Made by a program: the position numbers and the translations under genes. Below the pieces are notes generated by a model, which made no database searches, was not told the DNA's origin, and saw nothing but the letters and a program-made list of their open reading frames with translations. A stretch of DNA of 38,008 bases from a virus. Below are positions 7,642 to 37,786 of this stretch, in pieces (the stretch's first letter is position 1; each line of letters begins with the position of its first letter). The stretch is taken from positions 1-38,008 of IMG/VR virus record IMGVR_UViG_3300020183_006562; one strand, written 5' to 3'.

Positions 7642-8725
7642 TCAAATCATTGAATAGAGATCTGCACACGTCTTGTGTGATGATAGATTTCAATATTTCT
7701 TTATCGGAAAAAATCTTCAAATTATGAGATCTAATATGCTTGGTGTCTGAATACAATTTTTCACTGTCTATATCCAACAGAGATCTGGCCAAGTTGGCTA
7801 TCTTGTTGCCCCTTTTGAAACAATCTTTTTCATCATCATAAGATTCGTCCCATACATCACTGAAAGTTTTAAATCCCATTTCTCGTAGACATTTTAGATA
7901 ACCTCGTTGTCCATACACTATGAAAGGTTGCTGGCAAATTATGGGTTTCCAGATCTTTTCTGTTAAAAAATAAGGATACCCACCCGAATTTGGATCATCT
8001 GCGAGAGTCTCTGTGACTAGGTTGATCTTGGAATGATTGTAAGGCAGGGTATATATTGTTTGGTCATATCCATAAAATGGATAATTGTGTTTGAATTCTG
8101 GAATTTCATATTCTGGGGGCAAGAGTTTATTAAAGTTTTCCATTCTATATGTAAATAGAGATTTTTTCAAAGCTCCAACAGCCATCATTTGATTGTATAA
8201 ATGAATCCTGTGTAGGCGAGGCACCTTGTTCAGATACAAAAAATCAAATGATTTGATCGAATGATCTATATTCAAAGAATCGATCAGTTTGTTGTTGATG
8301 TATTTGTCATACATCAGCCACCAAAAGAAAGATCGGCTGCCATGTAGCTCGCCATACAGAGCAGCTTTGGATTTTTTAAGAACTTGTTGAAAAAGTGCAA
8401 GAGTCTCCATATCCGCATTTTTATAATTATATCTTTCCCAAAGATTCGCAAACACAGGTATAAAATTTAATTTGTTGAGCACTGTGAGTTTCCTTGACAA
8501 ATCATCTTTATATTCTTGTCCCAATTTAAATCTCTTGACAAAATATGTGTCAAGCATGACATATTTGTGACTGTAGAGATCTAACGGCACAGATTCATGC
8601 TCAAAGTAATGATCGGACATCCTGAGGGATATGTGTGCGTGATCAAAATAGCTGAGATAGCCTCGAGTTTCTGGAATGTTGCCGGTGCTCATGGCATCGA
8701 GAATGATATAGGAGTTCTTCATCAT
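7631..8725 (-). CDS. Glycosyltransferase-like protein (GT10/exostosin-like C terminus)
   Basis: The C-terminal half carries LVTETLADD, then GGYPYFLTEKIWKPII, and QPFIVYGQRGYLKCLREMGF. This arrangement (T-E-K-x-W/F-K-P with a following P-F-x-V-x-G) resembles the donor-binding region of fucosyltransferase-like and exostosin-like enzymes found in phages. The N-terminal 200 residues are not recognised. The likely role is transfer of a sugar to a phage or host glycan, consistent with the nucleotide-sugar dehydrogenase in the same window. Two adjacent ATG codons (8725 and 8722) can start it. The second fits the late promoter spacing exactly. The gene is AT-rich compared with its neighbours, suggesting separate acquisition. 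Confidence 0.6.
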   Translation of the reverse strand: MMKNSYIILDAMSTGNIPETRGYLSYFDHAHISLRMSDHYFEHESVPLDLYSHKYVMLDTYFVKRFKLGQEYKDDLSRKLTVLNKLNFIPVFANLWERYNYKNADMETLALFQQVLKKSKAALYGELHGSRSFFWWLMYDKYINNKLIDSLNIDHSIKSFDFLYLNKVPRLHRIHLYNQMMAVGALKKSLFTYRMENFNKLLPPEYEIPEFKHNYPFYGYDQTIYTLPYNHSKINLVTETLADDPNSGGYPYFLTEKIWKPIICQQPFIVYGQRGYLKCLREMGFKTFSDVWDESYDDEKDCFKRGNKIANLARSLLDIDSEKLYSDTKHIRSHNLKIFSDKEILKSIITQDVCRSLFNDLIKI

Positions 8726-15522: not shown

Positions 15523-17130
15523 GTGCCCATAGTGCAAATATCAAGAATACAGCATAGGCGTGGCAGAGCCACGGATCTGCCTCAGCTGGCGGCCGGCGAG
15601 CTAGGCTGGGTCATAGACGAGCAGCGATTGTACATCGGCAATGGCACAGTGGCGGACGGTGCTCCAGCCGTGGGCAACACGGAAATTCTTACCGCGAACA
15701 GCACATCATTTTCCGATGCCGTGGCTTATGTCTACAAAGGATATCTGGGAGACGCCACCCCAATAATCACAGGAGATGGCATTGATGTAGTAAGGTCCCT
15801 GCAAGAAAGATTGGATGATTACGTCTCTGTCAAAGCATTTGGGGCAGTGGGAAATGGCAGTGCCAATGACACAGCAGCGATTCAAAGAGCACTGAACGAA
15901 TTATACTGCGACACTGACAGAACTGATGTGAGATCTAGAAGATTGCTATTTTTTCCGGCCGGACAATACAACATAGTTGGACCAATATACATTCCACCAC
16001 ACGCTCAGTTAGCAGGCGAAGGCTCTGACAAGACGGTGATCTATCAATCGGGTGGTAACTCTGCCGTGGTCAAGATGCAGGACAGTCTGAAACAACAGGG
16101 AGTCAACATAGGAAACTCCAGCGCCACAGTGCCCACAAACATCAACATTGAAAATATCACGTTCAAAAATGGAGAGGCCTATGCGGGCTTTGAGATAGAG
16201 CGAGCATCCAACATCAGATTCAATAATTGCAAGTTTCAAGGCACTTATGCAGCGGGTGGTGCAGATGTTGCCAACAGCAAAGGAGTCACGGTGATCAGCA
16301 CCACTTCGTTGCCTTGTTCTAACGTGGCTTTTGACAGCTGCCAGTTCACCAAGTTCGCAAGATTGGTTGATTTCAGCTATGACGCGACCAGTGTAAAATT
16401 CATCAACTGTGATTTCTCTATAGGTTATTACGGTGTGATCATAGGAGAACAATTGGACGGTTCGACGAATGGTCTTACTTTAGGTCCTAAAGATGTCAAG
16501 ATATTGTCCAGTCAATTCGCCAACATTAAAACCAATGCCATATTGGTCAAGGGATCCAGCGTTGGAGCAGACGTCGGAGTGGGAGAAGTTGGAAATATCG
16601 TCAGCTTCAATAATTTTTTCGCCAGCACCGTGGGAACCAATAATGAAGGCGTCAACAGCCTTAACACCTATCCTGCCATTCAATTTGACACCGATGAGTG
16701 CGTGAGCGAATTGGATTATTTTGAACTTTCCCAAAAAAGGAGTACCGCATTCAAACCAATAGCAGAAGTTCAAGGGATCGGTATCAACAGCAGACAGATT
16801 AAGCAGATCACATTGGCCGATGGCAATACTTCAGCGATCACCACAGGCATCACACTGCCGGCACTTGAGGGGAAATCCATACGTATAGAATACAAGATCG
16901 AAAGAGGCGTACAATTTAGAGTGGGAGTATTGACCGTAAACGCTAGCACCAATTATGTTTCCTTCAATGATGACTTTGAAGAGAGCAACGGAGACATGGG
17001 AGTTGTGTTGACGGCTGTGATGGACAATTTAGACGCCACCGCTGGCAACGAATCAGTTACCATCAAATACACCACCACAGTGATCAGCGCCGATGCCACA
17101 ATGGATTATAGAGTTATTGAAATAGTCTAA
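15523..17130 (+). CDS. Tail fibre/spike with beta-helix (pectate-lyase superfamily) domain
   Basis: The start is GTG with TAGGAG upstream. Residues 1-50 (QISRIQHRRGRATDLPQLAA, then GELGWVIDEQRLYIGNG) are the N-terminal attachment module found on phage tail fibres and the Mtd-type receptor-binding proteins. From about residue 100, VSVKAFGAVGNGSANDTAAI followed by QRALNEL is the hallmark of the pectate-lyase superfamily beta-helix. Repeated rungs such as NIRFNNCKFQG, NVAFDSCQFTK and SVKFINCDFSI follow. The C-terminal 150 residues are likely a trimerising receptor-binding region. The protein probably binds and perhaps cleaves surface glycan. The enzymatic residues are not obvious. Confidence 0.85.
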   Translation: MPIVQISRIQHRRGRATDLPQLAAGELGWVIDEQRLYIGNGTVADGAPAVGNTEILTANSTSFSDAVAYVYKGYLGDATPIITGDGIDVVRSLQERLDDYVSVKAFGAVGNGSANDTAAIQRALNELYCDTDRTDVRSRRLLFFPAGQYNIVGPIYIPPHAQLAGEGSDKTVIYQSGGNSAVVKMQDSLKQQGVNIGNSSATVPTNINIENITFKNGEAYAGFEIERASNIRFNNCKFQGTYAAGGADVANSKGVTVISTTSLPCSNVAFDSCQFTKFARLVDFSYDATSVKFINCDFSIGYYGVIIGEQLDGSTNGLTLGPKDVKILSSQFANIKTNAILVKGSSVGADVGVGEVGNIVSFNNFFASTVGTNNEGVNSLNTYPAIQFDTDECVSELDYFELSQKRSTAFKPIAEVQGIGINSRQIKQITLADGNTSAITTGITLPALEGKSIRIEYKIERGVQFRVGVLTVNASTNYVSFNDDFEESNGDMGVVLTAVMDNLDATAGNESVTIKYTTTVISADATMDYRVIEIV

Positions 17131-22516: not shown

Positions 22517-23707
22517 TTAAATTTTGTAATCTTTACTTTTAATTTTAATTGGCCCATTAAATATATTTTCATCTTGGAACCAATTTTTCCAATGTTTTTT
22601 TTCATCATTGAAAAGAGACTTATACATCATACGGTGTTCTTCGCTGCCAGGCAAATCTGAGTCATAATACCATAAATCTCTGTTGCCCCAAAATGTTGAT
22701 ATTTCTTTTTTGTTATAGTATTTTTCATCATTTATAAAAATTTTTGGATAAATCAATTTTTTAAAAGGTTCATAATCCCATACTCGAAAACTTATTTGTC
22801 CTGGCTGTTTTTTATTGAGTATTGTGAATTCTTTCATACCGTATAATTTTTCAACAACACCATTAACTTTTTCAATAAAAAATTTTTTTGCTAGATGTGC
22901 CTGTTTTATCAAAATTTTGGCACATGTCTCGGTTGGGGCCCAATAAAAAAATTCCAGAGTATCTCTATTATTTTTATGAAGTATTTGTCGTATTGGTGTC
23001 ATATGTCCCTGAGCATACGAATCAAAAAAATTGTGTATCCACATATTTTCTTTATAAACGTGTCTTGGCATCACGGAGTCAACTCCATGCAAGGTACATA
23101 ACGTTTTTTCCTTTTTTAATACTTTCTGCCAATCATCTATATACTCATACATCACATCTAGGGCTAATCTGTTGACACTTAAACGAGGACCAAACAAATA
23201 GATAGGCTCAAGGTTCAAATTAAGATCCCTTATAATTTTAGGCCAATTACAGATAATGTCACCATAATCAAATCTCCTAATTTTGATTTGTGGATATTGC
23301 TGTTCGATTTGAGCAAGTTTTTTCCATGTAAAATCTTTTAATTCATGATATTGATGACCTGTCGTATCGTATCTACTAAAGAACACGCATATCTCATCGG
23401 GATATATGCCATTGTCTAAAAAAGCACGAAGCATGTTAGTGCTGTCAAATCCTCCACTGTAATAGATCACAATGTAATCATATTGCTCTCTCAATTCTTC
23501 AGCTCTTTTTTTATATAATTGATCCAATGTTGCCGTGGGTTCTTTCGACCAGTCGAACTGAGAAAAAAATTTATCATTATATATCCATTGTATCGGTTTG
23601 TATGGGTGTGGATTTTTTTGATAATAATCCATTAACTGATAGATGCTATAAGTTTTGAAATTTCCAAATTGGTAGTATCCGTATTGATCTATGTTGGGCT
23701 GATTCAT
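22517..23707 (-). CDS. PP-loop ATPase (asparagine-synthase-like), paralog A
   Basis: The PP-loop YYSGGFDST (S84-S89) binds ATP pyrophosphate in the AsnB, QueC and GMP-synthase superfamily, which adenylates a carboxylate or carbonyl. The N-terminal 75 residues (YGYYQFGNFKTYSIYQLMDY, then WIYNDKFFSQFDW, and LYKKRAEELREQYDYIV) are shared with three other genes here. There is no glutaminase domain as in AsnB, so ammonia or another amine must come from elsewhere. Further family motifs are FFYWAPTETCAKILIKQAH and WGNRDLWYYDS. A late-like TAAATAT core precedes the start (nine bases). It is a close paralog of the gene at 34112, including DNA-level blocks. The substrate is unknown. Confidence 0.8.
   Translation of the reverse strand: MNQPNIDQYGYYQFGNFKTYSIYQLMDYYQKNPHPYKPIQWIYNDKFFSQFDWSKEPTATLDQLYKKRAEELREQYDYIVIYYSGGFDSTNMLRAFLDNGIYPDEICVFFSRYDTTGHQYHELKDFTWKKLAQIEQQYPQIKIRRFDYGDIICNWPKIIRDLNLNLEPIYLFGPRLSVNRLALDVMYEYIDDWQKVLKKEKTLCTLHGVDSVMPRHVYKENMWIHNFFDSYAQGHMTPIRQILHKNNRDTLEFFYWAPTETCAKILIKQAHLAKKFFIEKVNGVVEKLYGMKEFTILNKKQPGQISFRVWDYEPFKKLIYPKIFINDEKYYNKKEISTFWGNRDLWYYDSDLPGSEEHRMMYKSLFNDEKKHWKNWFQDENIFNGPIKIKSKDYKI
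22881..22966. repeat. Near-identical DNA block shared with 34470-34555
   Basis: In paralog A this 86-base block differs from 34470-34555 in paralog D at only four positions by my reading. A second block, 23388-23518, is also highly similar to 34989-35119. The sequence between them is more diverged. Confidence 0.7.
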
Positions 23708-23783: not shown

Positions 23784-24842
23784 ATGACTCAATTGGATCT
23801 GCGTTGGAATTTTAGAACATCGGAACAGGATAAACATTTTTTTTGGAAGGGTGTGAAATGTTTGGGAATGTTAGCAGACCTAGCGTCGGGTCACTGCCAC
23901 GTGCCCTATCCTCCCAACGATAATATTTTTGTTATTGGAGATGATCTTAAACAAATTTTCTATAATGCCTGTCCTCACAAATATTCACAATTATATAAAT
24001 CTTCCTGTGATGTCAAAGATAGAATTGTATGTCCTGTACATCGATGGTCCTTTGATCAACAAGGAAACTTTTTAGCCGGAAGAGGGTTTACCCCTTCGAC
24101 AGATAAAAATCTTGTTAGGTCAACGGCATTCAAATGGCAGGGACTTATCATGACCGGCAACAGTGATTGGATTGACAGCATCAATGATAAACTCAAACAA
24201 GATCTGACACGTTTTCAAGGAAAGAACTATAGAGTATGGAAGAGAGAAACCATCGTGTCTGACTATGATTGGAAGATATTTTATGAAATCTTTCTAGATC
24301 TATATCACGTGAGATCCTGCCATCCAAGTCTGAGAAGCGTGGTTGATGTCAACAACTATCAATACGCCTTTGGCGACGGTTGGAGTTGCCAGCATGCCTA
24401 TCTAAATGAAGTCAGAGCAACGACCACAAAGAAGACCGAAGATTGGCTAGAGGCCTGTGAGCGATTGAGATTACTGGATGATTCATTCAAACTGCTTTGG
24501 TTGGCTCTGTACCCAAATGTCATGCTGGAGGCATACCCCGGATGCAATGTTATAAGCCAGGTGTATCCTTTAAGTCCAGGACGGCACGCAAATACAGTGG
24601 AATTTTATTTCGATGAAAATATTTTAAAAGAGTGTCCGGAATTTGCTCAGCTGACCTACGATTTCTGGATGGAAACTGCTGTTGAGGATGAGCAGATCAG
24701 CAGATTAATGCAGGTTGGCAGAAGCAATCTTTTGAGAGATATAGAAAAGGTCCAAGAATTTAATCATCCAATCGAAGAGATGGCAAACGCACACTGGTTC
24801 AAATGGATGAAAGAAAAAGAATTATCACACAAACCAACTTAA
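23784..24842 (+). CDS. Rieske non-heme iron oxygenase, alpha-subunit type
   Basis: The Rieske 2Fe-2S motif is complete: C63-P-H65, 17 residues, C83-P-V-H86. The mononuclear iron site of ring-hydroxylating oxygenases is also present (D172-L-Y-H175-V-R-S-C-H180, preceded by DWKIFYEIFL), with acidic residues near 308 (ETAVEDEQISR) where the third ligand lies in the family. The length of 352 aa fits a full alpha-type subunit. Such enzymes insert oxygen into, or demethylate, small organic substrates using electrons from a ferredoxin or reductase, which is not encoded nearby. The substrate is unknown. It is the first gene of a four-gene unit with a second Rieske, a PP-loop and a small protein. Confidence 0.9.
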   Translation: MTQLDLRWNFRTSEQDKHFFWKGVKCLGMLADLASGHCHVPYPPNDNIFVIGDDLKQIFYNACPHKYSQLYKSSCDVKDRIVCPVHRWSFDQQGNFLAGRGFTPSTDKNLVRSTAFKWQGLIMTGNSDWIDSINDKLKQDLTRFQGKNYRVWKRETIVSDYDWKIFYEIFLDLYHVRSCHPSLRSVVDVNNYQYAFGDGWSCQHAYLNEVRATTTKKTEDWLEACERLRLLDDSFKLLWLALYPNVMLEAYPGCNVISQVYPLSPGRHANTVEFYFDENILKECPEFAQLTYDFWMETAVEDEQISRLMQVGRSNLLRDIEKVQEFNHPIEEMANAHWFKWMKEKELSHKPT

Positions 24843-24857: not shown

Positions 24858-25733
24858 ATGTTTCTAGGCCACATCAACGATTTACGAGACAACGAATGGA
24901 AAGTTTTACCACACCTAAAACGTTGGACCTTGCATCGTAATAACGGAAAATATTCTTTGCTAAGCAACGTCTGTCCACACCAAGGATCCTTGCTTAAAGG
25001 CATGCAAGGAAAGAACGCTCGCCTCTGCCCATATCATGGATGGAGTTTTGATAATAAGGGAAATCCCATGGGTTCGGGAACCACAGATTATTGGTGCAAG
25101 AATGAACATCCTTTAGACACCAGAGATGTTTTCATATGGAATAATTTTGTATTTTCTGAGCATCCAGATCTACCGGAATATGATTTTTTGAATACAGAAC
25201 ATCTCACATTAGGCAGCTTCAGAATTGATACTGTCAAGGCCAATTACAAAAACATTTACAGTATCTTTTTAGATATAGATCACCTACCGGTGGTACACCC
25301 AAAGGTATATGATCAATTGCAGACCAGTCAGGTGGAATGGTCCATAAGAGAAAAAAGCAATATTCAACTGGCCCCTAATAACCGCCAGTACGAGAGCGAC
25401 TACACCAAATCCATGTTCTTGGAAGACAGAGAAAGAAAGTATGGAGCGGCATGGTTCGCAGTCTATCCCTACACCACTGTGGAATATTTTCCGGGAGCCT
25501 GGATCAATTGTGTGTTTCTCCCAATGTCAGATAACGAGACGGCAATATCCGTGTATCAATACAGAGATACGAGATATTCAGAAGAGAATTGGCGATTGAA
25601 TCTAGAAATTTGGGAAAAGGCCTGGGAACAAGACAACGAACAGGCAACATTGATCGACCCAATATTCAAACCAACCCTGCTGGAACCCGCCAAAGCACAC
25701 TATCTAGAATGGATCAACAAGAATGGATGCTGA
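24858..25733 (+). CDS. Rieske non-heme iron oxygenase, second copy
   Basis: The Rieske centre reads C39-P-H41, 15 residues, C57-P-Y-H60. The catalytic iron site is FLDIDHLPVVHP, with H142 and H147 and the bridging acid D139. The length of 291 aa is shorter than the first copy (352). It has a distinct sequence rather than being a recent duplicate, so the two may form a hetero-oligomer or act on successive substrates. The 3' end overlaps the PP-loop gene by 11 bases, which links oxygenation with the adenylating step. No reductase or ferredoxin is seen beside it. Confidence 0.9.
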   Translation: MFLGHINDLRDNEWKVLPHLKRWTLHRNNGKYSLLSNVCPHQGSLLKGMQGKNARLCPYHGWSFDNKGNPMGSGTTDYWCKNEHPLDTRDVFIWNNFVFSEHPDLPEYDFLNTEHLTLGSFRIDTVKANYKNIYSIFLDIDHLPVVHPKVYDQLQTSQVEWSIREKSNIQLAPNNRQYESDYTKSMFLEDRERKYGAAWFAVYPYTTVEYFPGAWINCVFLPMSDNETAISVYQYRDTRYSEENWRLNLEIWEKAWEQDNEQATLIDPIFKPTLLEPAKAHYLEWINKNGC

Positions 25734-26655
25734 CTGGAAGCAAGGCAGTTTTTGTAAAGATGGATGGATTTCCTATCGTTGGAATCGCACGCCCGAGAAT
25801 CCCTACCCCAAGCACGACTTTGAAATTTTTTTCAATCCGCCAGCCCCAACAAAATTGTTATCAATGGAGGAAGCGGCGATCAAAACTGTAGAAGATATCC
25901 TGCAGCAATACAGAGATAAAAAAATATTCCTAGCAATGAGTGGAGGCATAGATTCCGAATATATTGCTGAAATACTTCGCAAAATGCAAATAAGTTTTAC
26001 TCCTATTATTGTACATGTTGAACAATATAATCAAGTAGATTATCAATGGGCACACAAATGGTGTGATAAGAATGATACTAAGGCAATAGTGTATGAATTG
26101 TCCTTATCTCAATATATGTTACATAGCATCAATCGCTGCATAAAGTATTACACAAGAAGAGCACAAGCGGCTTCAATCATAGAAGTAAGTGCAAATATAG
26201 CAAGAGAAAATAACGGAGTGTTGATTGCAGGGTGTGGTACTCATGAATTATATATACCAGATCCTATTATGTCTTTAGAGGCTCAAGATTTAACTTTGAA
26301 AAATAAAATAGGCTACGTTTTTAATGAAACAGATTTAATTAAACATTTTGTTGCCCCTGATATGCCTACAATGTTTTATAATTGGTCTCCCGAAATTACA
26401 CTTGCTTACATACATGCGAGAAATCCAAAACTTACTACAGAAGAAAACAGGGTAAAACTTTTTGGATGTGAGTATCGCCCTAAATATGGAGTAATCACGA
26501 CCAGTTGGAAAAAAAATCCCGTTGATGCCAAAAATCCCTATTACAAAAGCATTGTGTATGTGGGATCTCTTCATTCAGGGCTAGGGTCTTCCGATTCATA
26601 CTATCTGGGTACGACCGAAAATCTTATGAAAATATTGAAACATGAAAACATTTGA
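25723..26655 (+). CDS. PP-loop ATPase, divergent type (paralog E)
   Basis: The PP-loop is AMSGGIDSEY (S73-S78), followed by a nucleotide-binding strand-helix pattern (FTPIIVHVEQYN). Unlike the four minus-strand paralogs it lacks the YGYY-type N-terminal module and the later FYW and GxRDxW motifs, so it is a distant member closer in style to AsnB C-terminal domains or QueC-like enzymes. A cysteine-containing stretch, VLIAGCGTHELYIPDP, may hold an active-site residue. It overlaps the second Rieske gene by 11 bases at the start and the small gene at 26642 by 14 at the end, so it belongs to one unit. The substrate is unknown. Confidence 0.8.
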   Translation: MDADWKQGSFCKDGWISYRWNRTPENPYPKHDFEIFFNPPAPTKLLSMEEAAIKTVEDILQQYRDKKIFLAMSGGIDSEYIAEILRKMQISFTPIIVHVEQYNQVDYQWAHKWCDKNDTKAIVYELSLSQYMLHSINRCIKYYTRRAQAASIIEVSANIARENNGVLIAGCGTHELYIPDPIMSLEAQDLTLKNKIGYVFNETDLIKHFVAPDMPTMFYNWSPEITLAYIHARNPKLTTEENRVKLFGCEYRPKYGVITTSWKKNPVDAKNPYYKSIVYVGSLHSGLGSSDSYYLGTTENLMKILKHENI

Positions 26656-27010
26656 ATTTCTTCATTTTGACTTTAAAATTTATCCTTACAATCCAAAAGA
26701 TAATAATACTTCTTATATTGTAATAAAATTCAATAACAATATTATTTTGGAAGAACCTGTAAAACATTATGAAAAAATATTCAAGGTCTATTTTAATCAA
26801 GAATGTGCATTTCAAAAACATCAACTGAGTATTTTTAGTAAAAATAACCATTGTGAATTAGAAGTAAAAGATTTTCTATTAATGGGGGGAAAATTTGATA
26901 ATCTAGAACAAGAACAGTTAAAATCTTATAAAGATAATGGTATATATACCTTTGAATTTGAATCCCCTTATGCCTATTATTTTTTAAAACGTTTTAAATT
27001 AAATTTCTAA
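26642..27010 (+). CDS. Small AT-rich hypothetical protein (122 aa)
   Basis: The protein is rich in Phe, Lys, Asn and Tyr (FEFLHFDFKIYPYNPKDN, then YIVIKFNNNIILEEPVKHYE) and looks beta-strand rich. It has no conserved motif that I recognise. The start overlaps the PP-loop gene by 14 bases. The end overlaps the convergent PP-loop gene at 26999 by 12 bases. It may be a partner or substrate carrier of the Rieske and PP-loop enzymes, but that is inferred only from position. It is among the most AT-rich genes in the window. Confidence 0.6.
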   Translation: MKTFEFLHFDFKIYPYNPKDNNTSYIVIKFNNNIILEEPVKHYEKIFKVYFNQECAFQKHQLSIFSKNNHCELEVKDFLLMGGKFDNLEQEQLKSYKDNGIYTFEFESPYAYYFLKRFKLNF

Positions 27011-28279
27011 ATAATGCCTTTCTGAACAAAATACATCTATACTAAGATTTCTAAAATCAACAGAAGAAGGCACTTTGGATCTTATATGTTCAGGTAGTGC
27101 AGGTACATTTTTAGTAAAATTATTACGATGCCATTTAAAGTTATGAAAACCCCATAAATCAAATTTTTTGTAAATGCTCTTTATGGCACCAATGAACCTA
27201 GTTTGATCATCGGCTCTGTGTGCTTCCCACCACCAGCGATCTCTTGGGCCAAATATATATCCTATGTTTTTTCCTACTGTAAATGTGCCTTCTTTCCAAT
27301 CGGGATAAATTAATCGATTCAATCCATCTGGTGTCAAATAATACATTTTATTATTAATTTTTGTTGCTGGTCTTCGATATGAATAAGGCACATATTCACC
27401 ATTATAACCAAGTACCCAGTTGTAAGGATCGCTGGTCAGATATCTGGAGTCTAAGTCTTCTTTGGGCGGATTTCTTAGATAATTTTTTACTATATGACCT
27501 TGTCTGGCAAGGATGTCTATTGAATCTGTAGACCAATAAAAAAATTCATCATTGTCTTCTTTTCTATTCATCATTTGTATTCTAGGACCAACACCGTTGC
27601 CATCGATAATATCAAAAAATTCTATATAATATTTGTTTTCTGTCTCGTCATACATCACAGGAGGTTTGTCGGCCCCCCAAACAAAACATAGTTTTTTTCC
27701 ACTGGCGATGATTTTTGCCCAATCAGAAATTTTTTCTCTTACATAGGTGCGAGCAAGTTGGTGAGGACCAAATGAATGATTAGATTTATATATAAAATCA
27801 AATTTGTTGTGATCTTCATTAAAAACCGATTTAATAATGGGGGTGAGATCAACCAGTCGATGTTTGGTATTTGGCATCACATTTAAAAATTCTTGTGTCT
27901 GCGGTATGGCTACTGTCTTAACTTCTATGTTTAGATAGCTGTCCCAGGTCTTCTCTCCCTCATGGGCATGGAATTGAGCGATTTCGTCCACGTGTAGGTT
28001 GTTTTCTCGAAAAGTGTTTAAGACTGTAAAACTATCCACTCCGCCACTGTACCAAATTACGATGTAATCATATTTCTTTCGTATCTGTTCTGCTCTTTGC
28101 TTGTAGAGTTTTTTCAAATTCTCCTGTGTGTCTATGTGCCATGGATGTTTGGAAAACACGTCATCATTAAAGATCCACTTGACGGGAGTACGAACTAGAT
28201 GTGCATATTCAAGTGCTTCAATTTTGCTGTAGGTTTTTAAACTGCCTACCAGATAATACCCAAAGTGATCTTTGTTCAT
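26999..28279 (-). CDS. PP-loop ATPase, paralog B
   Basis: The layout matches the other minus-strand copies: FGYYLVGSLKTYSKIEALEY, WIFNDDVFSKHPWH, LYKQRAEQIRKKYDYIVIW, and the PP-loop YSGGVDS (S78-S83). Later motifs are KLCFVWGADKP, FFYWSTDSIDILARQGH and FGPRDRWWWEA. The true start is taken as the ATG at 28279, because the two residues further upstream need a TTG. It is not closely similar to copies A and D at DNA level. It stands downstream of the transporter genes on the same strand, separated from them by a strong hairpin, and could be a part of that unit or independent. Confidence 0.8.
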   Translation of the reverse strand: MNKDHFGYYLVGSLKTYSKIEALEYAHLVRTPVKWIFNDDVFSKHPWHIDTQENLKKLYKQRAEQIRKKYDYIVIWYSGGVDSFTVLNTFRENNLHVDEIAQFHAHEGEKTWDSYLNIEVKTVAIPQTQEFLNVMPNTKHRLVDLTPIIKSVFNEDHNKFDFIYKSNHSFGPHQLARTYVREKISDWAKIIASGKKLCFVWGADKPPVMYDETENKYYIEFFDIIDGNGVGPRIQMMNRKEDNDEFFYWSTDSIDILARQGHIVKNYLRNPPKEDLDSRYLTSDPYNWVLGYNGEYVPYSYRRPATKINNKMYYLTPDGLNRLIYPDWKEGTFTVGKNIGYIFGPRDRWWWEAHRADDQTRFIGAIKSIYKKFDLWGFHNFKWHRNNFTKNVPALPEHIRSKVPSSVDFRNLSIDVFCSERHYLEI

Positions 28280-28327
28280 AAACAAAATTACTTATAATTT
28301 TAAAGGGAGACTGTGATTTATTTGTAG

Positions 28328-28354
28328 ATCATAGGCGTGTGACACGCCTATGAT
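28328..28354. terminator. Perfect long palindrome, terminator or processing hairpin
   Basis: A 13-base arm beginning ATCATAGGCG pairs perfectly with its complement around a single G (28328-28340 with 28342-28354). It folds as a stable hairpin directly after the transporter operon stop. The T-run on either side is weak, so it may act as a processing or stabilising element as much as a terminator. Confidence 0.55.
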
Positions 28355-28366
28355 ATTTGTATGGAA

Positions 28367-29218
28367 TTAATTGTATGTGCCGTAACGTCTTGCGGTGGCA
28401 ACAAATTTATCAACATCCACCTTGCCTGGTGCAATTTTACTGCCAACCATGTCTTGCTGAATCATTGTTTTTTCAAAATCTTTTTGTAATGATTTTTGTA
28501 ATTTATCCACTTGTTCTGAAGATAGGTTCTTCGCAAACACCATCATACCTAATTTGTAATCATTAAGATCACTTTTCTCAACAAAGGAGCTCAATGTTTT
28601 TTGTCCATATTTCGTATCTCCGGTGGTATACAGACAGTCAATGGAACCTGCCTTGATTGCCGTGCTGGCGTTTCCTGTTGCTGTATAGGCAACGTCTATT
28701 TCTTTGTTGAGCAATCCTGTAACTGCAGCGGACGAGCTATCATAGGTCACGTCGGTGAACTTTATGCCCATCTTGTTCTTATTCAACTCGTCTCTGATGG
28801 TTCCTCCCGGATTGAATTTATTATTGCCCAATTTATAGGTTCTGTTTGATTCTAGCTTCGTACCTTTCAGCACACACACTTCATAAGGCGCATAGGTTAC
28901 TGCTATCGGTGCCGCTTTTTCAAAATTGATTATGCAATTTTGCTTGGTGACATTTGTGTTCTTGATCATACTATCTGACCATACGATGGCAACCGGTCCC
29001 TTGGCATTTTCAAAATAGTCAACTGCTTCACCACAACTGTTTTTTTGTGTGGCAGTGATCTCAAAGCCTGCTGATTTAGACAAATCTATCACAGCGTTGG
29101 CAACAACACCCTGTGGTCCTTTCAGTGTGGAGGTTGGTACTATCTCAACTTTCTGTGCCATGGCTACATTACAAGATAATATAAACAAGCCCAATAAAAG
29201 TATTGTAATTTTTTTCAT
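28367..29218 (-). CDS. TctC-type periplasmic solute-binding protein, copy 2
   Basis: A cleavable signal peptide is clear (MKKITILLLGLFILSCNVAMA, cut before QKVEIVPT). The mature part follows the Bug/TctC family pattern of tripartite tricarboxylate transporters: KGPQGVVANAVIDL, NSCGEAVDYF, LNKEIDVAYTATG and CLYTTGDTKYGQKTLS. Four cysteines are conserved with the second copy at 30542 (in SCGEAV, NCIINF, VCVLKG and DCLYTT), suggesting two disulfides. The length of 283 aa is slightly short (usual about 300-330). It lies 18 bases after a TctA-type gene, and the start has AAGGAATA upstream. The ligand, normally a carboxylate, is unknown. Confidence 0.75.
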   Translation of the reverse strand: MKKITILLLGLFILSCNVAMAQKVEIVPTSTLKGPQGVVANAVIDLSKSAGFEITATQKNSCGEAVDYFENAKGPVAIVWSDSMIKNTNVTKQNCIINFEKAAPIAVTYAPYEVCVLKGTKLESNRTYKLGNNKFNPGGTIRDELNKNKMGIKFTDVTYDSSSAAVTGLLNKEIDVAYTATGNASTAIKAGSIDCLYTTGDTKYGQKTLSSFVEKSDLNDYKLGMMVFAKNLSSEQVDKLQKSLQKDFEKTMIQQDMVGSKIAPGKVDVDKFVATARRYGTYN

Positions 29219-29236
29219 AGTTTATTCCTTATTAAG

Positions 29237-30529
29237 TCAGTTAAAATAAATTTGTATTACTCTGAGGGTTGTGTTATATATCTCGTCAGTGAGCAGTAAA
29301 CCCACAACCACAGTTAACAAATCTACCTGATATTTATAGAACAGGTAACTCACTGGTAAAAATATTGAGCAATGAATTAATAGATATTTTATATCATATG
29401 AGTTGGCGAAATAGAAAACAGCAAGGCTGGTAAAAAATAATGAGTATGTGACTAATCTTTTTTGAATCAATTTTACAAGTGCAACGTAATATCTTTGATT
29501 TACTGATGTGGCCAACATATAGTAAATTATTCCGCTTATCAATAGACACCCAATAATGATATAGACTGTTGTTTGATCTTTCACAAAAGAAAATGTTAAA
29601 TTAAATTTTTGGAAATATTGTACCAAGACTAGTTCAGAAGCTGTGAGAGGCACGCCAAACACTAGCAATGGCAACCACCCAATGATCGCTGCACTATTAT
29701 TGCTAGTTTCGCTAGCAGTGATCTTTTTTAAAGTGTTGCTCTTTCTAAATTTTTCAAAAGCATATGAAACATAACTGCTTATAGTTGAACCCAGCTGTGG
29801 TACCAATCCCACAACACAGCCAAAAATACTATGTATTGAGATATTACCTAGATATTTTCTGATATTAAAATTTTTAATGTTTCTGTCTACCTTAGTATTT
29901 TGTATGGTTGCACCATTATACCATAACAGTTGGGAGATAAAAATTATTATTAATATCAGCTGATTATTAAAATAGTAGATTGGGGTTGTGGGCAAATAAT
30001 TCCTGGCCATAGTAGCCAACTCTGGATAGAAATTGATAAACGTTGCAGCAAGTAATAAAAAAATATTCATAAAAAACTTTCGTTTGCTGAATATCGCCAT
30101 GAAAACTAATACATAAAAAATAAAAATTTTCAACAAGATAGGGAAATGTATATGTTTTGATACATCGCCGTAGAGTATGAAAAATAATATAATGCAGGAA
30201 ACCACAGTAGCAATTAAACTACCCAAATTGGTCAGCATCACTGCGGTGAACATGTCCCGTGTCTTTAAATTATTGATCTCGATCAGTGTGGGATATGAGC
30301 TGGACTCCCCTGGTATTCTAAGATAAAGCACTGCTATACTGCCAAAGAACTGTGATCCCATCCTCGATATGATTCCATATAATACTATGCATAATGGATC
30401 AAGCGGAACCAAAGGAAGAAATAGAATGAACCCTAAAATTATAGTGATTCCCGGAATCAGTCCAACGACCATGCCAGATAACAAGCCAATAAAGACCGCC
30501 TGTATAATAGGAATTATTTCAAGGACCAT
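29237..30529 (-). CDS. TctA-type membrane permease, copy 2
   Basis: The large membrane subunit of a tripartite tricarboxylate transporter is recognised by VFIGLLSGMVVGLIPGITII followed by LGFILFLPLV in the N-terminal half, and by the second-half element GLVPQLGSTISSYVSYAFEK and ASETSNNSAAIIGWLPLLVF. These resemble the two TctA hallmark regions. About ten hydrophobic spans are visible. The length of 430 aa is shorter than the usual about 500. No TctB gene is seen. The sequence is more AT-rich than the first copy. It follows the TctC-like gene at 30542 by 12 bases in one transcriptional direction. Confidence 0.75.
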   Translation of the reverse strand: MVLEIIPIIQAVFIGLLSGMVVGLIPGITIILGFILFLPLVPLDPLCIVLYGIISRMGSQFFGSIAVLYLRIPGESSSYPTLIEINNLKTRDMFTAVMLTNLGSLIATVVSCIILFFILYGDVSKHIHFPILLKIFIFYVLVFMAIFSKRKFFMNIFLLLAATFINFYPELATMARNYLPTTPIYYFNNQLILIIIFISQLLWYNGATIQNTKVDRNIKNFNIRKYLGNISIHSIFGCVVGLVPQLGSTISSYVSYAFEKFRKSNTLKKITASETSNNSAAIIGWLPLLVFGVPLTASELVLVQYFQKFNLTFSFVKDQTTVYIIIGCLLISGIIYYMLATSVNQRYYVALVKLIQKRLVTYSLFFTSLAVFYFANSYDIKYLLIHCSIFLPVSYLFYKYQVDLLTVVVGLLLTDEIYNTTLRVIQIYFN

Positions 30530-30541
30530 TTTATTATGATG

Positions 30542-31408
30542 CTAGTCAAGATGTTCAGCAGATTTCGCTCTCTTTATAAATTCTGAAATTTGATCTTTGG
30601 ATGGAGAAACCGTGGTGACGTCGATACTTTGTAAGAACAATTTTTCTGCCAGCGGTTGTATTGACTCCAAAAGTTTTTTTTCATCCGCGGCAGTTAAATT
30701 CTTCACGGCGAACATAAACGAAACGCTTTCGTTATTGACGAACGAATCTCTGCCTGTGAATTCTTTAAGAGGTTTCTGTTGGAATCTCGAGGAACCTGTG
30801 CTGTACGGGCAGGAGATAGCTCCCCTCTTTATCGATTCCGCTGCCACGCTCAGGGACAGCAGACCCACATCTATGTCTTTGTTCACCAGTGCCTGTAAGA
30901 CTTCATCGCTGCTGTTGAAGAGCACGTGCTTGAACTGCGCTACCAACACGTTGTCGTTCATTTCTTTGGTGATGGCGTTGTAGGGGCTGAATCTGACGAC
31001 ACCCAATGTGGCCACCCTGTTAGTAGGTATACTGTTGCCGTGCTTGGTGCACACTTCCTGCGTGGCGTGTGTGATAAACATAATTTTTGCCGAATCAAAA
31101 TCGTCCACCATGCAGTCTTGGTTGGATAGCCTGGACAGACGATACTGATTATGAGATATAAGAATTGCGGCCGGTGTGCGATCATTCTTGAATTTTTGCA
31201 CAGCGCTGCCGCAGTTCACACTGTGTATGGGGTTGATCTTGATGTTGCTTGGTTGTGCCAGCGCCGCCACTTGATTTGTGATAATCACGCTAGGGCCCTT
31301 GCTGGTGAGATAAGTTTGTATTTCAGTGGCTCTCAGTGAAGATGACACTGTCAACAAAGACACAATAAAAATTATGATAAGCGGCATGGTTTTAAAAATA
31401 TTTAACAT
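30542..31408 (-). CDS. TctC-type periplasmic solute-binding protein, copy 1
   Basis: A signal peptide precedes the mature start at about residue 28 (IIIFIVSLLTVSSSLRA, then TEIQTYLTSK). NCGSAVQKF, QDCMVDDF, EVCTKHGNS and ISCPYSTGSSRFQQKPL match the four-cysteine layout of the second copy at 28367. The ribosome site is very good (AAGGGG). It lies 12 bases downstream of the first TctA-type gene and 12 before the second, in a strict alternation of permease and binding protein. It is 288 aa long. The GC content is clearly higher than that of the second pair, so the two pairs do not look like a recent exact duplication. Confidence 0.75.
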   Translation of the reverse strand: MLNIFKTMPLIIIFIVSLLTVSSSLRATEIQTYLTSKGPSVIITNQVAALAQPSNIKINPIHSVNCGSAVQKFKNDRTPAAILISHNQYRLSRLSNQDCMVDDFDSAKIMFITHATQEVCTKHGNSIPTNRVATLGVVRFSPYNAITKEMNDNVLVAQFKHVLFNSSDEVLQALVNKDIDVGLLSLSVAAESIKRGAISCPYSTGSSRFQQKPLKEFTGRDSFVNNESVSFMFAVKNLTAADEKKLLESIQPLAEKLFLQSIDVTTVSPSKDQISEFIKRAKSAEHLD

Positions 31409-31420
31409 AGTTCATCCCCT

Positions 31421-32698
31421 TCAAAAATAAATTTGGTATAGCTGCATGAATGTAAAAAATATTTGATTGCTTAACAACAGACCCACAGTGATTACCAATA
31501 GGCTGGTGCCCAATCTATGAAATAACCAACCCAATGGTGCAAACACCAGCAGGTGCATCAACACCATGTCAAGCCCAAAATTATTCATACTGGCATAGGT
31601 GAGCAGGCTGAGCAATATCACCGCAGCACTGAACAGGGGATTGGTTATGAATCTGCTCAGCGCAAAGTAGAAGGTGCGATTGGTTTCAAGCGCTATCAAA
31701 AAATATAGTATGGCCGCCAGCAGGCACAGCAACATGGCCACGAGCACGTTTTTAAGCTCTAGCAGTGTTTGGATCGCGAATCCGTACTGATTGAAATGTT
31801 GTAGGAAGACAATTTCTATCGAAGTGATAGGCATTCCGAACACCAGCAATGGCAGCCAGTTAGACACCACGGCCGAGTTATTTGATGTTTCAGAAGCGGC
31901 CACTCTTGACAAGGACATCTTTCCACGCAGCTTCTCGATGCCGTAGCTAGCGTAACTGGCAACTGTGGCCCCTATTATCGGTATCAGGCCAAGGCACATA
32001 CCAAGAATGCTGTGTCCTATAAATTTTTTATACCATTTGTTAAGTTTCAGGGACTTGGTCCTGCTCACGTTTGCCGTGGTCACCTTCTTGACCGATAAGG
32101 CATTTATCAAGAAGTAAGATGAAAATAAAACTATCAATGAATACAGAGGGTCAAAGTAAAATATGGTCAGTCCAATCTTGACGTTGGCGGCAATATCGCT
32201 GTAATTGGCAAAGAAAACTATGATCGCGAAGCCCAGCAGGTTCCATACTATTTTTTTAAAAGGATAGAACAGCGCCAAGCCCAGTAGCAAGGCAAAAATT
32301 GTTGCCCTTACGTAGATAGGCAACACAACATAGGAAAATAATCCTGTAGGCAAGAGTACCATGACCAATGCCAGGGCAAGTGCTGTGGCGAATAAACTGC
32401 CATGCGTGGTTATTTCCACTGCCTTGTAGATTTTTTGTGGCGTGTTAAAGTGTTTGGCCTCCATGAGAACAGGAAAGCTGCTGGTTTCCCCGGACATCCG
32501 GTAATAGAGTGCGGCCTGGCTGCCAAAAAATTGCGATCCGATGCAGACAGTCATGGCGAATATCAACAGGCTGACAGGGTCATTGGAAACCAGTGGCAGC
32601 AATATTAGAAACCCTAATGTGGGAGTAACGCTGGGCATCAGTCCCACAAATACTCCGCCCAACAATCCTATCAACATGGCCAAAATATTTTCAATCAT
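31421..32698 (-). CDS. TctA-type membrane permease, copy 1
   Basis: The N-terminal hallmark is LIGLLGGVFVGLMPSVTPTL, and the C-half hallmark is GLIPIIGATVASYASYGIEK followed by VAASETSNNSAVVSNWLPLL. This reads like the family pattern of a gated loop with Gly, Pro and the paired Asn residues. The length of 425 aa is about 15 percent shorter than typical TctA. The ATG overlaps the stop of the upstream PP-loop gene (ATGA), which indicates translational coupling between a carboxylate-type transporter and a PP-loop ATPase. TctA normally needs TctB and TctC. TctC-like genes are adjacent, but no TctB-like small four-helix protein is found. Confidence 0.8.
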   Translation of the reverse strand: MIENILAMLIGLLGGVFVGLMPSVTPTLGFLILLPLVSNDPVSLLIFAMTVCIGSQFFGSQAALYYRMSGETSSFPVLMEAKHFNTPQKIYKAVEITTHGSLFATALALALVMVLLPTGLFSYVVLPIYVRATIFALLLGLALFYPFKKIVWNLLGFAIIVFFANYSDIAANVKIGLTIFYFDPLYSLIVLFSSYFLINALSVKKVTTANVSRTKSLKLNKWYKKFIGHSILGMCLGLIPIIGATVASYASYGIEKLRGKMSLSRVAASETSNNSAVVSNWLPLLVFGMPITSIEIVFLQHFNQYGFAIQTLLELKNVLVAMLLCLLAAILYFLIALETNRTFYFALSRFITNPLFSAAVILLSLLTYASMNNFGLDMVLMHLLVFAPLGWLFHRLGTSLLVITVGLLLSNQIFFTFMQLYQIYF

Positions 32699-33792
32699 AA
32701 GATGTAGTCCTTTGAAAGAGATCCTATCAGTCCTTTTTCATGAACACCATCGTTGAACCAGTTTTTTGGCAGTTCACACAGAGACTGATATATCTTCATT
32801 ATCTTGTGTCTGCTGTCAGTGTTGCTGTCATATAGCCACTGATCCCTGCTACCAAAAACATTTGATTGAGGTCTCCATGTGTAATATAGGTTTTCCTCAC
32901 ACTGGGGATAGACGATTCTTTGGGCGGGTACGTAGTCATGGTCCAGAACTGTGCCCAGATCTAAATTCTTGCGATTTTTAAAATGGCTGTTGATCAATCC
33001 TTTGTTGGACGACCAAAAATTTTTGAGCAACTGGGCCTGTTTGATTACTAGCTCTGGACAGCTCGGACTCCAATAGAACCATTCCACCCCGCTGTCCTGG
33101 ATGATTGGCCTGTTGGTATTGCCGATATCTGAAAAATTAAAGATAAACTTATCGTCTTTGAAACGCAGGCGTGGTTTCTCATGACCATACATGATTCCCA
33201 CATCAGACTCTCGATATTTTTTTGGCAGTTTTGATTTGATAAAAGATCTGCTGAGAGAATTGGGGGCTATGTATCCAGGTATGTAATACAAATACTCATC
33301 ATAGAGCTGTTCAATGATATTGAGAGACAAGTCTGTTAGATCTAATCTAATTAATTCTGTTTGTGGCACCAATGGCAAAAGTCTTTGTAGTCGCGGCCAT
33401 GTCTGTAATTGCCATTCCTGGTTGATGTCTGATTCTTTATTATCATGATCCACAGAGTAATAGAAACACACAACCGCGTCTAGATATATGTTGTTGTTTA
33501 CAAAAGTTTTTAAGATGTTGTTCGAATCAAATCCACCGCTGTATAGCAACACTAGATGTTTATATTGTGCCCGTAATTGCTCGGCTCTTTTTCTGTAAAG
33601 ATTGTTAATATCTACTTTGATCTCTTTTTTCCAGTCATATGATGAGAATATTTCATCGTGGAAATGATAAGAAGGTGAACCTTTGTATCTCTGTGCTAAT
33701 TCTAGCGCTTCGATTTTGCTGAAAGTTTCAACGATCTGTTGATTATGATTTACTCTATAGAAACCGTATTTTTTATCTACATAAAACATCAT
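32695..33792 (-). CDS. PP-loop ATPase, paralog C, first gene of the transporter unit
   Basis: PP-loop LYSGGFDSNN (S85-S90) is preceded by the same module as copies A, B and D (KYGFYRVNHN, FSKIEALELAQRYK, FHDEIFSSYDWKKE, LYRKRAEQLRAQYKHLVL). Later motifs are GIMYGHEKPRL, WFYWSPSCPELVIKQAQ and FGSRDQWLYDS. The gene stops inside the start of the TctA-type permease, so the two proteins are probably made together. A sigma70-like promoter with a palindrome over its -10 lies upstream. Possible function: activation of the imported carboxylate. The substrate is unknown. Confidence 0.8.
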   Translation of the reverse strand: MMFYVDKKYGFYRVNHNQQIVETFSKIEALELAQRYKGSPSYHFHDEIFSSYDWKKEIKVDINNLYRKRAEQLRAQYKHLVLLYSGGFDSNNILKTFVNNNIYLDAVVCFYYSVDHDNKESDINQEWQLQTWPRLQRLLPLVPQTELIRLDLTDLSLNIIEQLYDEYLYYIPGYIAPNSLSRSFIKSKLPKKYRESDVGIMYGHEKPRLRFKDDKFIFNFSDIGNTNRPIIQDSGVEWFYWSPSCPELVIKQAQLLKNFWSSNKGLINSHFKNRKNLDLGTVLDHDYVPAQRIVYPQCEENLYYTWRPQSNVFGSRDQWLYDSNTDSRHKIMKIYQSLCELPKNWFNDGVHEKGLIGSLSKDYIL

Positions 33793-33990: not shown

Positions 33991-34067
33991 GCACCCGTAG
34001 CTCAACTGGATAGAGCGCCTGACTTCGGATCAGGAGGTTGAGGGTTCGAGTCCTTCTGGGTGCACCA
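33991..34067 (+). tRNA. tRNA-Arg (anticodon UCG)
   Basis: The 77-base gene folds as a full cloverleaf. The acceptor arm GCACCCG pairs with TGGGTGC, followed by A and an encoded CCA. The D arm is GCTC/GAGC. The anticodon stem is CCTGA/TCAGG with the loop CTTCGGA, giving anticodon UCG (reads CGA and perhaps other CGN codons). The T arm is GAGGG/CCTTC with loop TTCGAGT. It is the only tRNA in the window. Confidence 0.95.
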
Positions 34068-34111: not shown

Positions 34112-35299
34112 CTAAATTATATAATTTTTACTTCTAATTTTTTCATGACCTTTAGATATGTCACTGTCGTAGAAAAATCTTCTCCAATGACTTTTTTCCT
34201 TCTCAAAATGGGAAAGATGTATAGCTTTCCAATGTTCTTTCGCATTAGGCAAGGTTGAATTATAATACCATTGATCAACATTACCTATGGTAGCATTGTA
34301 TTCTTTATGTTTATAAAATTGTTCGTCACCACCACATAGTCTCGGATATATTATTTTTTTAAAGGATTCAATATTTTGATCAAATCTCATCATGATTGAC
34401 GGTCTTTTACTAATATATCCATGTACATTAATTAATTCTTGAAATTTTCCTTTCGACATTTCTGTATAAAATTTTTTTGCTAGATGTGCCTGTTTTATCA
34501 AAATTTTGGCACAAGTTGCGGTTGGGGCCCAATAAAAAAATTCCAGAGTGTCTCTGTCGCTCTTATTAGTCATCTGTCGAATTGGGCTCATATGACCATA
34601 CACATCCACATCATTAAAATTATGTGTAAATTCTTTCGTTAGAAAATTATATCTTAATTGCACAGCATCAACCGCAAAAACAGTACATAACTTTTTTTTA
34701 TCTTTTAATAACCGTTTCCAATCATCCAGCCATTCATATAATGTATCTGAAACCAATCGATGAATACTTAACCGTGGCCCCCAATAATAGATAGGATCTA
34801 AATTTAAATTTAAATAATCATTTGTGTCTTTAACAATTTTAGGCCAATTACAAACAAGATCGGCATTGTCAATTCTTCTAATTTTGATTTGGGGATATTG
34901 TTTTTTAATCTCCTCAAGTTTTTTCCAAGTTTTCCATTTTCCTTCGATATATCTATGACTGACAGTATCAAATCTGCTGTCAATTCTGCATATCTCATCT
35001 GGGTATATGCCATCGTCTAAAAAAGCATAGAGCATGTTAGTGCTGTCAAATCCTCCGCTATAATATAGTACAACGTAATCATATTGCTCTCTTAATTCTT
35101 CAGCTCTTTTTTTATATAAATCCTTTAAAGAGTCTACAGGTTCTCGAGCCCAGTCAAATTGAGAAAAAAAATTGTCATTGTATATCCATTTATAAGGTTG
35201 AGGATCTTTACCATAGTAGTCCATCATTTGATGCCTGCTATATGTTTTAAGATCACCTATTTGATAATAACCATACCTATCCATAAATGATGGTTGCAT
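34112..35299 (-). CDS. PP-loop ATPase, paralog D
   Basis: The module YGYYQIGDLKTYSRHQMMDY, then WIYNDNFFSQFDW and LYKKRAEELREQYDYVVLYY leads to the PP-loop SGGFDS (81-86). KKLCTVFAVDAV, FFYWAPTATCAKILIKQAH and IGNVDQWYYNS follow. It is very similar to paralog A, with long DNA blocks almost identical, so a recent duplication or gene conversion is likely. It is the last gene of the unit starting with the DUF3050 gene and follows the SDR gene by six bases. This couples an adenylating enzyme with two oxygenases and a reductase. The substrate is unknown. Confidence 0.8.
   Translation of the reverse strand: MQPSFMDRYGYYQIGDLKTYSRHQMMDYYGKDPQPYKWIYNDNFFSQFDWAREPVDSLKDLYKKRAEELREQYDYVVLYYSGGFDSTNMLYAFLDDGIYPDEICRIDSRFDTVSHRYIEGKWKTWKKLEEIKKQYPQIKIRRIDNADLVCNWPKIVKDTNDYLNLNLDPIYYWGPRLSIHRLVSDTLYEWLDDWKRLLKDKKKLCTVFAVDAVQLRYNFLTKEFTHNFNDVDVYGHMSPIRQMTNKSDRDTLEFFYWAPTATCAKILIKQAHLAKKFYTEMSKGKFQELINVHGYISKRPSIMMRFDQNIESFKKIIYPRLCGGDEQFYKHKEYNATIGNVDQWYYNSTLPNAKEHWKAIHLSHFEKEKSHWRRFFYDSDISKGHEKIRSKNYII
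34470..34555. repeat. Near-identical DNA block shared with 22881-22966
   Basis: This is the partner of the block in paralog A. It encodes the FFYWAPTATCAKILIKQAH region of paralog D. Confidence 0.7.
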
Positions 35300-37027: not shown

Positions 37028-37786
37028 TTATAATTTATGTATCAGCAATCTCACACTGTCCCAGAATGCTATCTTGTCATCTATGGCCTTGTGTGCGGCT
37101 TGTTGGGACAACCGTATTTTGCTACCATCGTTGTTGCAGAATGTGTCCACCAATATTATGGAAGCCGGACCGTGATCACCACTGTCCACTTCTATGTGTC
37201 GATTAAGCCAGGCATAAAATTTTGGAGCTTCCTGCTCTGTGATACCTAAACGTTTAACCATGTTCATGTACATGCCGGGGATGACAGTTTCCCTACCAAA
37301 TGCAAAAGCAGAAGCAATAACACACGGCTCTTCGGTGTTAATAAATCCAAAAGTGCTTTCCATAAATGCTCGACTGGCTGCTGGTACAACTTCCATTGAT
37401 TCGAACAATCCCTTGACTGTAACATTACGAACGAAATCCAATACAGGTTGTGGATCAGCACCAATCTCTCGCATGGCCTCGATATAGAGATCAAAATGAC
37501 TGACGTAGCGATCTCCAAACTGATCGCTTTCTTCGTCGAGTATGATTGAATTAATTAATCTAGCACAGCCGTTTTTTGTGTATTGCGAAGCGAACCACGG
37601 CACCGTGCTGGGAGCCACTAGCTGTTGTAATTTTTTAACCAAGCTCATGAAATCCCAAACACAGTAGACATGATGCTCCATAAAAATGGCCAACTGTTCT
37701 CGAGTGGTGATCACGTCTGTGGTCAATAGGGGATGATTTTCCAAACGTTGTTGATGTTCTCGTATGCGATCTAGATCCAATTTCAT
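37028..37786 (-). CDS. DUF3050 family protein (heme-oxygenase-like fold)
   Basis: The motif EHHVYCVWDFMSLVKKLQ (37-54), then LINSIILDEESDQF (78-90), SHFDLYIEAM (96-105), FGRETVIPGMY and RHIEVDSGDHGPAS match DUF3050, a family of the heme-oxygenase-like fold. The acidic and histidine residues (E37, H38 or H39, E85, E86, D88, H97, and the HIEVDSGDH block) are placed to bind a metal centre, as in the diiron oxidases of this fold. The length of 252 aa is normal. It is the first gene of the unit with the two 2OG oxygenases, the SDR and the PP-loop gene. The function is presumably oxidative, with unknown substrate. Confidence 0.82.
   Translation of the reverse strand: MKLDLDRIREHQQRLENHPLLTTDVITTREQLAIFMEHHVYCVWDFMSLVKKLQQLVAPSTVPWFASQYTKNGCARLINSIILDEESDQFGDRYVSHFDLYIEAMREIGADPQPVLDFVRNVTVKGLFESMEVVPAASRAFMESTFGFINTEEPCVIASAFAFGRETVIPGMYMNMVKRLGITEQEAPKFYAWLNRHIEVDSGDHGPASIILVDTFCNNDGSKIRLSQQAAHKAIDDKIAFWDSVRLLIHKL

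Follow-up and report, generated by a model that had tools for sequence, protein, structure and literature searches.

The window analysed here, i.e., the whole stretch of 38,008 bases of one IMG/VR record, carries on its minus strand a row of five genes in which a PP-loop gene is followed by two pairs of a TctA-type permease and a TctC-type binding protein, and we see an even chance that this row is a phage importer of a small organic anion together with an enzyme that uses the imported compound. The five-gene feature itself is real, conserved and under selection. The analysis shows what the genes are and that they are spaced as in an operon, with no TctB in the record; it also shows that TctA and TctC were duplicated as a unit, that selection is purifying and that the arrangement recurs in many phages. 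A preliminary description of this DNA had proposed the TctA and TctC identities, the missing TctB, an old duplication and the linkage to the PP-loop gene, all of which stand, while the import and the shared substrate that it also proposed keep their conditional character. The direction of transport is something we infer, import being supported by the anatomy of the row.

The record comes from an uncultivated virus, is classed as linear and is probably a fragment. Since its NrdA is about 70% identical to that of T4-like cyanophages (which is not proof of a cyanobacterial host), and several of the encoded proteins have matches among the PHROG families for tail, virion and DNA metabolism, the window is phage DNA, the phage being, judging from these similarities, probably of a T4-like kind. 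The row and the elements next to it are as follows.

32695-33792, minus strand: PP-loop gene (N-type ATP pyrophosphatase), first in the row, with an SGGFDS motif; same place in related loci L001 and L010
31421-32698, minus strand: TctA1, short permease of 425 aa (PF01970, E 4e-36), of the short viral clade
30542-31408, minus strand: TctC1, four-cysteine binding protein of 288 aa with a signal-like N-terminus, predicted to be exported
29237-30529, minus strand: TctA2, short permease of 430 aa (PF01970, E 1e-35)
28367-29218, minus strand: TctC2, four-cysteine binding protein of 283 aa, predicted to be exported, with Foldseek matches to TctC/Bug proteins
28328-28354, no strand: perfect 12-bp inverted repeat just past TctC2, from a consensus scan and not in itself evidence of function
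26999-28285, minus strand: further PP-loop gene of the same family, past the hairpin
34112-35299, minus strand: further PP-loop gene of the same family, upstream of the row
22517-23707, minus strand: further PP-loop gene of the same family
25723-26655, plus strand: divergent PP-loop gene (Asn_synthase and NAD_synthase Pfam matches at E 0.00036 and 0.0018, below cut-offs)

The coordinates given in the preliminary description for both TctA and both TctC genes were all correct. In the order of transcription (PP-loop, TctA1, TctC1, TctA2, TctC2) the spacings are -4, 12, 12 and 18 bases, and the four-base overlap between the first permease and the PP-loop gene at 32695, already described earlier, is real and present in L001 too. 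The five genes look like a single transcription unit, for which the inverted repeat is a possible transcription stop, and promoter-like matches did not exceed chance expectation. Elsewhere in the window, a tail-spike-like protein (15523-17130, plus strand) has an N-terminal Mtd_N domain (major tropism determinant), and a tRNA-Arg (tcg) lies at 33991-34067 on the plus strand, opposite to and between two PP-loop genes. Two adjacent genes for Rieske-type ring-hydroxylating oxygenases are found at 23784-24842 and 24858-25733 (plus strand), a relative of the first of them also lying near the cassette of L001, and a DUF3050 protein (E 7e-72) is encoded at 37028-37786 on the minus strand, upstream of the PP-loop/transporter region.

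The GC content of the two TctA-TctC pairs differs (45%/45% vs. 34%/40%), as had been noticed before, and the accompanying claim that they are not recent copies agrees with an old duplication. L001 and L002, which come from two samples and are nearly identical to each other, keep the same five-gene order and the four-base overlap, and their proteins are 61–88% identical to the window orthologues; in L010 there is one set only, a PP-loop gene followed by TctA and TctC. Because L010 joins the second copies and not the first in both the TctA tree and the TctC tree, the TctA-TctC pair was, on these trees, most likely duplicated as a unit before the phages of the window, L001 and L010 diverged. Purifying selection on the cassette is strong: among orthologues of related phages dN/dS is 0.08 for the PP-loop gene and 0.056 for TctC2, while for TctA1 and TctC1 dN is 0.13 and dS is saturated.

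It is extremely improbable that we are looking at host contamination, a chimeric assembly or decaying genes, although IMG/VR records are uncultivated fragments and among the few TctA matches in GenBank phages are a contig of bacterial origin and short entries that are unannotated or unverified. The window encodes a phage NrdA and members of PHROG families for tail and virion, the cassettes of L001 and L010 likewise sit in phage records that have nrdB close by, and the reading frames are intact and under purifying selection. Furthermore, T4-type portal genes occur on 12 of 50 related records (down to E 1e-184; the remainder are mostly short fragments), which supports the phage nature of these records, and on these grounds contamination and decay were rejected. 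Two long marine records (L154 and L158, 165–171 kb) both show a large-terminase match with several in-frame stops, perhaps an inserted intron.

Both permeases match PF01970 over nearly the full model, about 96 bits above the cut-off, and TctA2 is 35% identical to TctA1. Thus the expected TctA profile was recovered for both copies, while for the binding proteins the corresponding check was only partly borne out, with TctC2 matching PF03401 below the cut-off (E 0.0026) and TctC1 giving no Pfam match, PF03401 included. The statement that the TctAs are 70–80 residues shorter than typical holds, since bacterial comparators have 496–505 aa; in the annotated ones the gene order is tctC-tctB-tctA and TctA has 501–504 aa. 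The short viral TctAs (419–469 aa) are truncated mainly at their ends, by ~39 C-terminal residues and a short piece at the N-terminus, but they retain the glycine/proline motifs and the signature E-N-N, with G11, G15, G19, P22, P69-G70, G233, P240, E270, N273, N274, P283 and P290 conserved in at least 30 of 32. In TctA the motif G-Hy3-G-Hy3-G-Hy2-P-G-Hy-G is repeated in TM1 and TM7 (PMC5812351); its glycines and proline are mostly present here, and the terminal G-Hy-G is altered in the window copies. The AlphaFold model of TctA was poor (about 12 transmembrane helices are typical of the permease of a tripartite tricarboxylate transporter, TTT). In trees with few bacterial sequences sampled, the short TctAs cluster together, separate both from bacterial TctAs and from the canonical ones of two other phages (support 1.000 in the smaller tree). 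All 32 stay together in the larger tree as well, where re-rooting removed the support value, and they constitute a distinct putative transporter subfamily. A scan of 84,980 prokaryote genomes with one or two short motifs found no relatives, and because of the use of such motifs this absence is suggestive only.

The fold predicted for TctC2 by an AlphaFold model from six phage sequences (pLDDT 86) is that of TctC/Bug proteins, the best Foldseek matches in the PDB being Bug27, Polaromonas TctC, BugD, MatC and TphC at 12–18% identity, with E down to 4e-12. TctC1 is about 30% identical to TctC2, and both begin with signal-like N-terminal segments, which together with the TctC2 fold point to the exported solute-binding protein of a TTT system. 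Four cysteines are common to the TctCs of the window, L001, L010, L106 and L107 and absent from the other aligned TctCs; the TctC partners in marine short-TctA groups have two cysteines only.

As the preliminary description had it, no TctB is seen: PF07331 found no match in the 38,008-base record, which is a fragment, TctB also being poorly conserved, and a purpose-built profile gave no match in any of 30 short-TctA clusters. Two other phage records do hold TctB material, namely a full TctB in a canonical TctB-TctA pair (L103, 7970-8419) and a 63-aa TctB-like frame between TctC and TctA (L104, about 8158-8345), and therefore TTT parts seem, from such gene content, to have been acquired by phages separately, more than once. 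Since TctB is a subunit of the characterised TTT systems (PMC5812351), and in view of these two phage records, the phage TctA-TctC might borrow a host TctB and so make a true tripartite TTT with one subunit supplied by the host. We consider this unlikely, as TctB is missing from all 30 clusters and the C-terminal segment has been lost in the same TctA clade, a combination that hints at a permease adapted to do without it; archaeal TctAs are also described without TctB in the account of Winnen et al. 2003 given in PMC5812351. A TctB-less phage TctA-TctC would very probably work like a TTT system.

N-type ATP pyrophosphatases such as AsnB, NadE and GuaA activate a carboxylate or carbonyl substrate with ATP. 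The PP-loop protein of the row carries SGGFDS, of which S, G, G and D are invariant in 11 aligned family members, and this is the SGGxDS motif of that superfamily. None of the described subfamilies (AsnB, NadE, QueC, ThiI, CysH) was matched, the best Pfam hit among the 11 members being QueC at E 0.014, and the PDB gave no match; as the family is without a characterised relative, its chemistry rests on the motif, from which we infer adenylation. The window has three further genes of this family and one divergent PP-loop gene. The 84,980 prokaryote genomes, scanned by one or two short motifs, gave no relatives of this family either, again a suggestive result only, and the family would so far be virus-specific.

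The partnership is not peculiar to the window, a possibility that was rejected since the same genes are found together in many phage loci. A search of IMG/VR with the PP-loop family gave 80 loci, 61 after removal of near-duplicates, and a TctC gene is present in 25 of these 61. Of 33 TctC genes, 20 have a PP-loop gene as their immediate same-strand neighbour, against 7.0 expected for a random gene of the same locus (P 2e-7). In L091 the genes alternate as PP-loop, TctC, PP-loop, TctC with short overlaps, and in L028 the order is TctC, PP-loop, TctC. With a TctC motif, by a different method but with some records shared with the former search, 26 loci in 18 clusters were obtained, the PP-loop family being nearby in 16 clusters and adjacent in 11. 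The third search, with the short TctA, returned 78 loci with 81 full-length TctA genes in 30 clusters, where TctC follows in 27 and a PP-loop gene is found in the covered flanks of 14. Whichever of the three genes the search starts from, the proposed linkage of transporter and PP-loop gene thus reappears in many divergent phages. A mirror-tree comparison of PP-loop proteins with adjacent TctCs (r 0.37, P 0.0004) ignores shared phage ancestry and carries little weight. Among 50,697 GenBank phage records, searches for TctA, TctC and PP-loop found no clear member.

Other genes accompany these cassettes. DctP, a second and unrelated carboxylate-binding family (TRAP-type), lies near PP-loop and TctA-TctC genes in 13 clusters, for example in L034 (7121-8077), L048 (8197-9144), L077 (1497-2453), L083 (2843-3775), L091 (9583-10548) and L106 (3904-4845), among others. 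In these 13 clusters no phage DctP has a signal peptide, nor is there a hydrophobic stretch in frame upstream of it, although the phage TctCs do carry such a signal; judged by their N-termini, the DctPs appear to be a periplasmic type of receptor that stays in the cytoplasm. AMP-binding ligase domains near cassettes (L001, 2789-4873, fused to a methyltransferase; L104, 2407-3348) would be a second type of acid-activating enzyme. The PP-loop neighbours in the 61 viral loci include nitronate monooxygenase-like proteins (9/139), methyltransferases, fatty-acid desaturases, TauD and BKACE, neighbourhoods which appear to resemble small-molecule pathways.

A reading that we hold less probable than the preferred one takes the transporter genes as ordinary auxiliary uptake genes: the phage would increase the supply of a carbon, energy or cofactor precursor for general metabolism, and the PP-loop gene would simply lie in the same island, its enzyme acting on some unrelated substrate. 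Other metabolic genes are plentiful in the region (the Rieske oxygenases and DUF3050), Bug27 and Bug69 are described as binding quinolinate, an NAD precursor (PMC11452294), and about half of the short-TctA clusters, large marine groups included, have no PP-loop gene within 6 kb, so that the transporter either works without it or the gene lies elsewhere. Against such an accidental neighbourhood speak the linkage reached from three independent starting genes, the frequent short overlaps and the fact that the PP-loop gene may stand before or after the transporter genes.

In most PP-loop phages TctC is present and TctA is absent, and a host permease would be needed there. Since bacterial orphan TctCs have been proposed as sensory (PMC5994714), these TctCs without a permease lend something to the idea that the proteins serve sensing, blocking of host transporters or exclusion of other phages instead of import. 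It seems highly improbable for the row, as the transport signature residues of TctA are conserved and TctA and TctC were kept together and duplicated as a unit.

Turning back to an importer with a linked enzyme, the diverged TctC1 and TctC2 would be exported to the periplasm and capture their ligands there, and the cognate short TctAs would move these inward by ion-driven secondary transport without a TctB of the phage's own. The PP-loop enzyme would probably activate the imported acid with ATP, after which amidation, ligation or some other modification of the activated acid for the phage could follow, transporter and enzyme presumably sharing a substrate. In TTT systems the receptors are binding proteins for organic anions, and ions are believed to drive the permease (PMC5812351); the imported anion would most likely be a carboxylate. 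Capture and import followed by cytoplasmic activation is the simplest account, for which the DctP genes nearby also speak, and its main weak point is the large marine group of short-TctA phages in whose covered flanks there is no PP-loop gene. To hypothesize further, and tentatively, the two-part phage family (short TctA and four-cysteine TctC, no TctB) with the virus-only PP-loop enzyme, and leaderless DctP in relatives, may form an import-and-activate route in which each PP-loop/TctC pair is tuned to its own ligand.

With the TTT system (TctCBA; TC 2.A.80) the row shares the PF01970 permease, the TctC/Bug fold and the permease signature residues, but it differs in having no TctB, the order TctA-TctC instead of TctC-TctB-TctA, a permease about 75 residues shorter, a four-cysteine TctC, a viral genome and the overlap with a PP-loop gene; by its gene content it would fall outside a strict TTT definition, TctB not having been found in the record. 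A lone tctA domain match on SUP05 viral contigs was proposed as an auxiliary metabolic gene with its role unassigned (Roux et al. 2014, PMC4164917; taken up again by a review of 2019, PMC6359870), which likewise is a TctA domain on phage DNA; in contrast, we describe a conserved, duplicated and enzyme-linked TctA-TctC cassette that dozens of phage clusters share. Orphan Bug/TctC proteins of Bordetella and Rhodoplanes (PMC5812351, PMC5994714) have no permease of their own, as in most PP-loop phages, but the phage proteins are encoded beside a virus-specific PP-loop gene and the window copies have permeases. Archaeal TctA homologues also do without TctB, although in the description by Winnen et al. 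2003, as relayed in PMC5812351, they are without TctC as well. In openly licensed full-text literature, phage TctA-TctC operons, TctB-less viral TctAs and the PP-loop link are unreported.

A two-subunit importer with a linked ATP-using enzyme in many phage lineages would be a common and undescribed viral metabolic strategy, and would bear on the necessity of TctB in transporter biology. The pairing with TctC also predicts that the substrate of the PP-loop enzyme is the TctC ligand or its derivative. To our knowledge, phages that alter host nutrient uptake mostly supply single parts. Cyanophage PstS, a phage-encoded periplasmic phosphate-binding protein, alters host uptake by serving the ABC transporter of the host, whereas the phage of the window also brings a permease and a linked enzyme.
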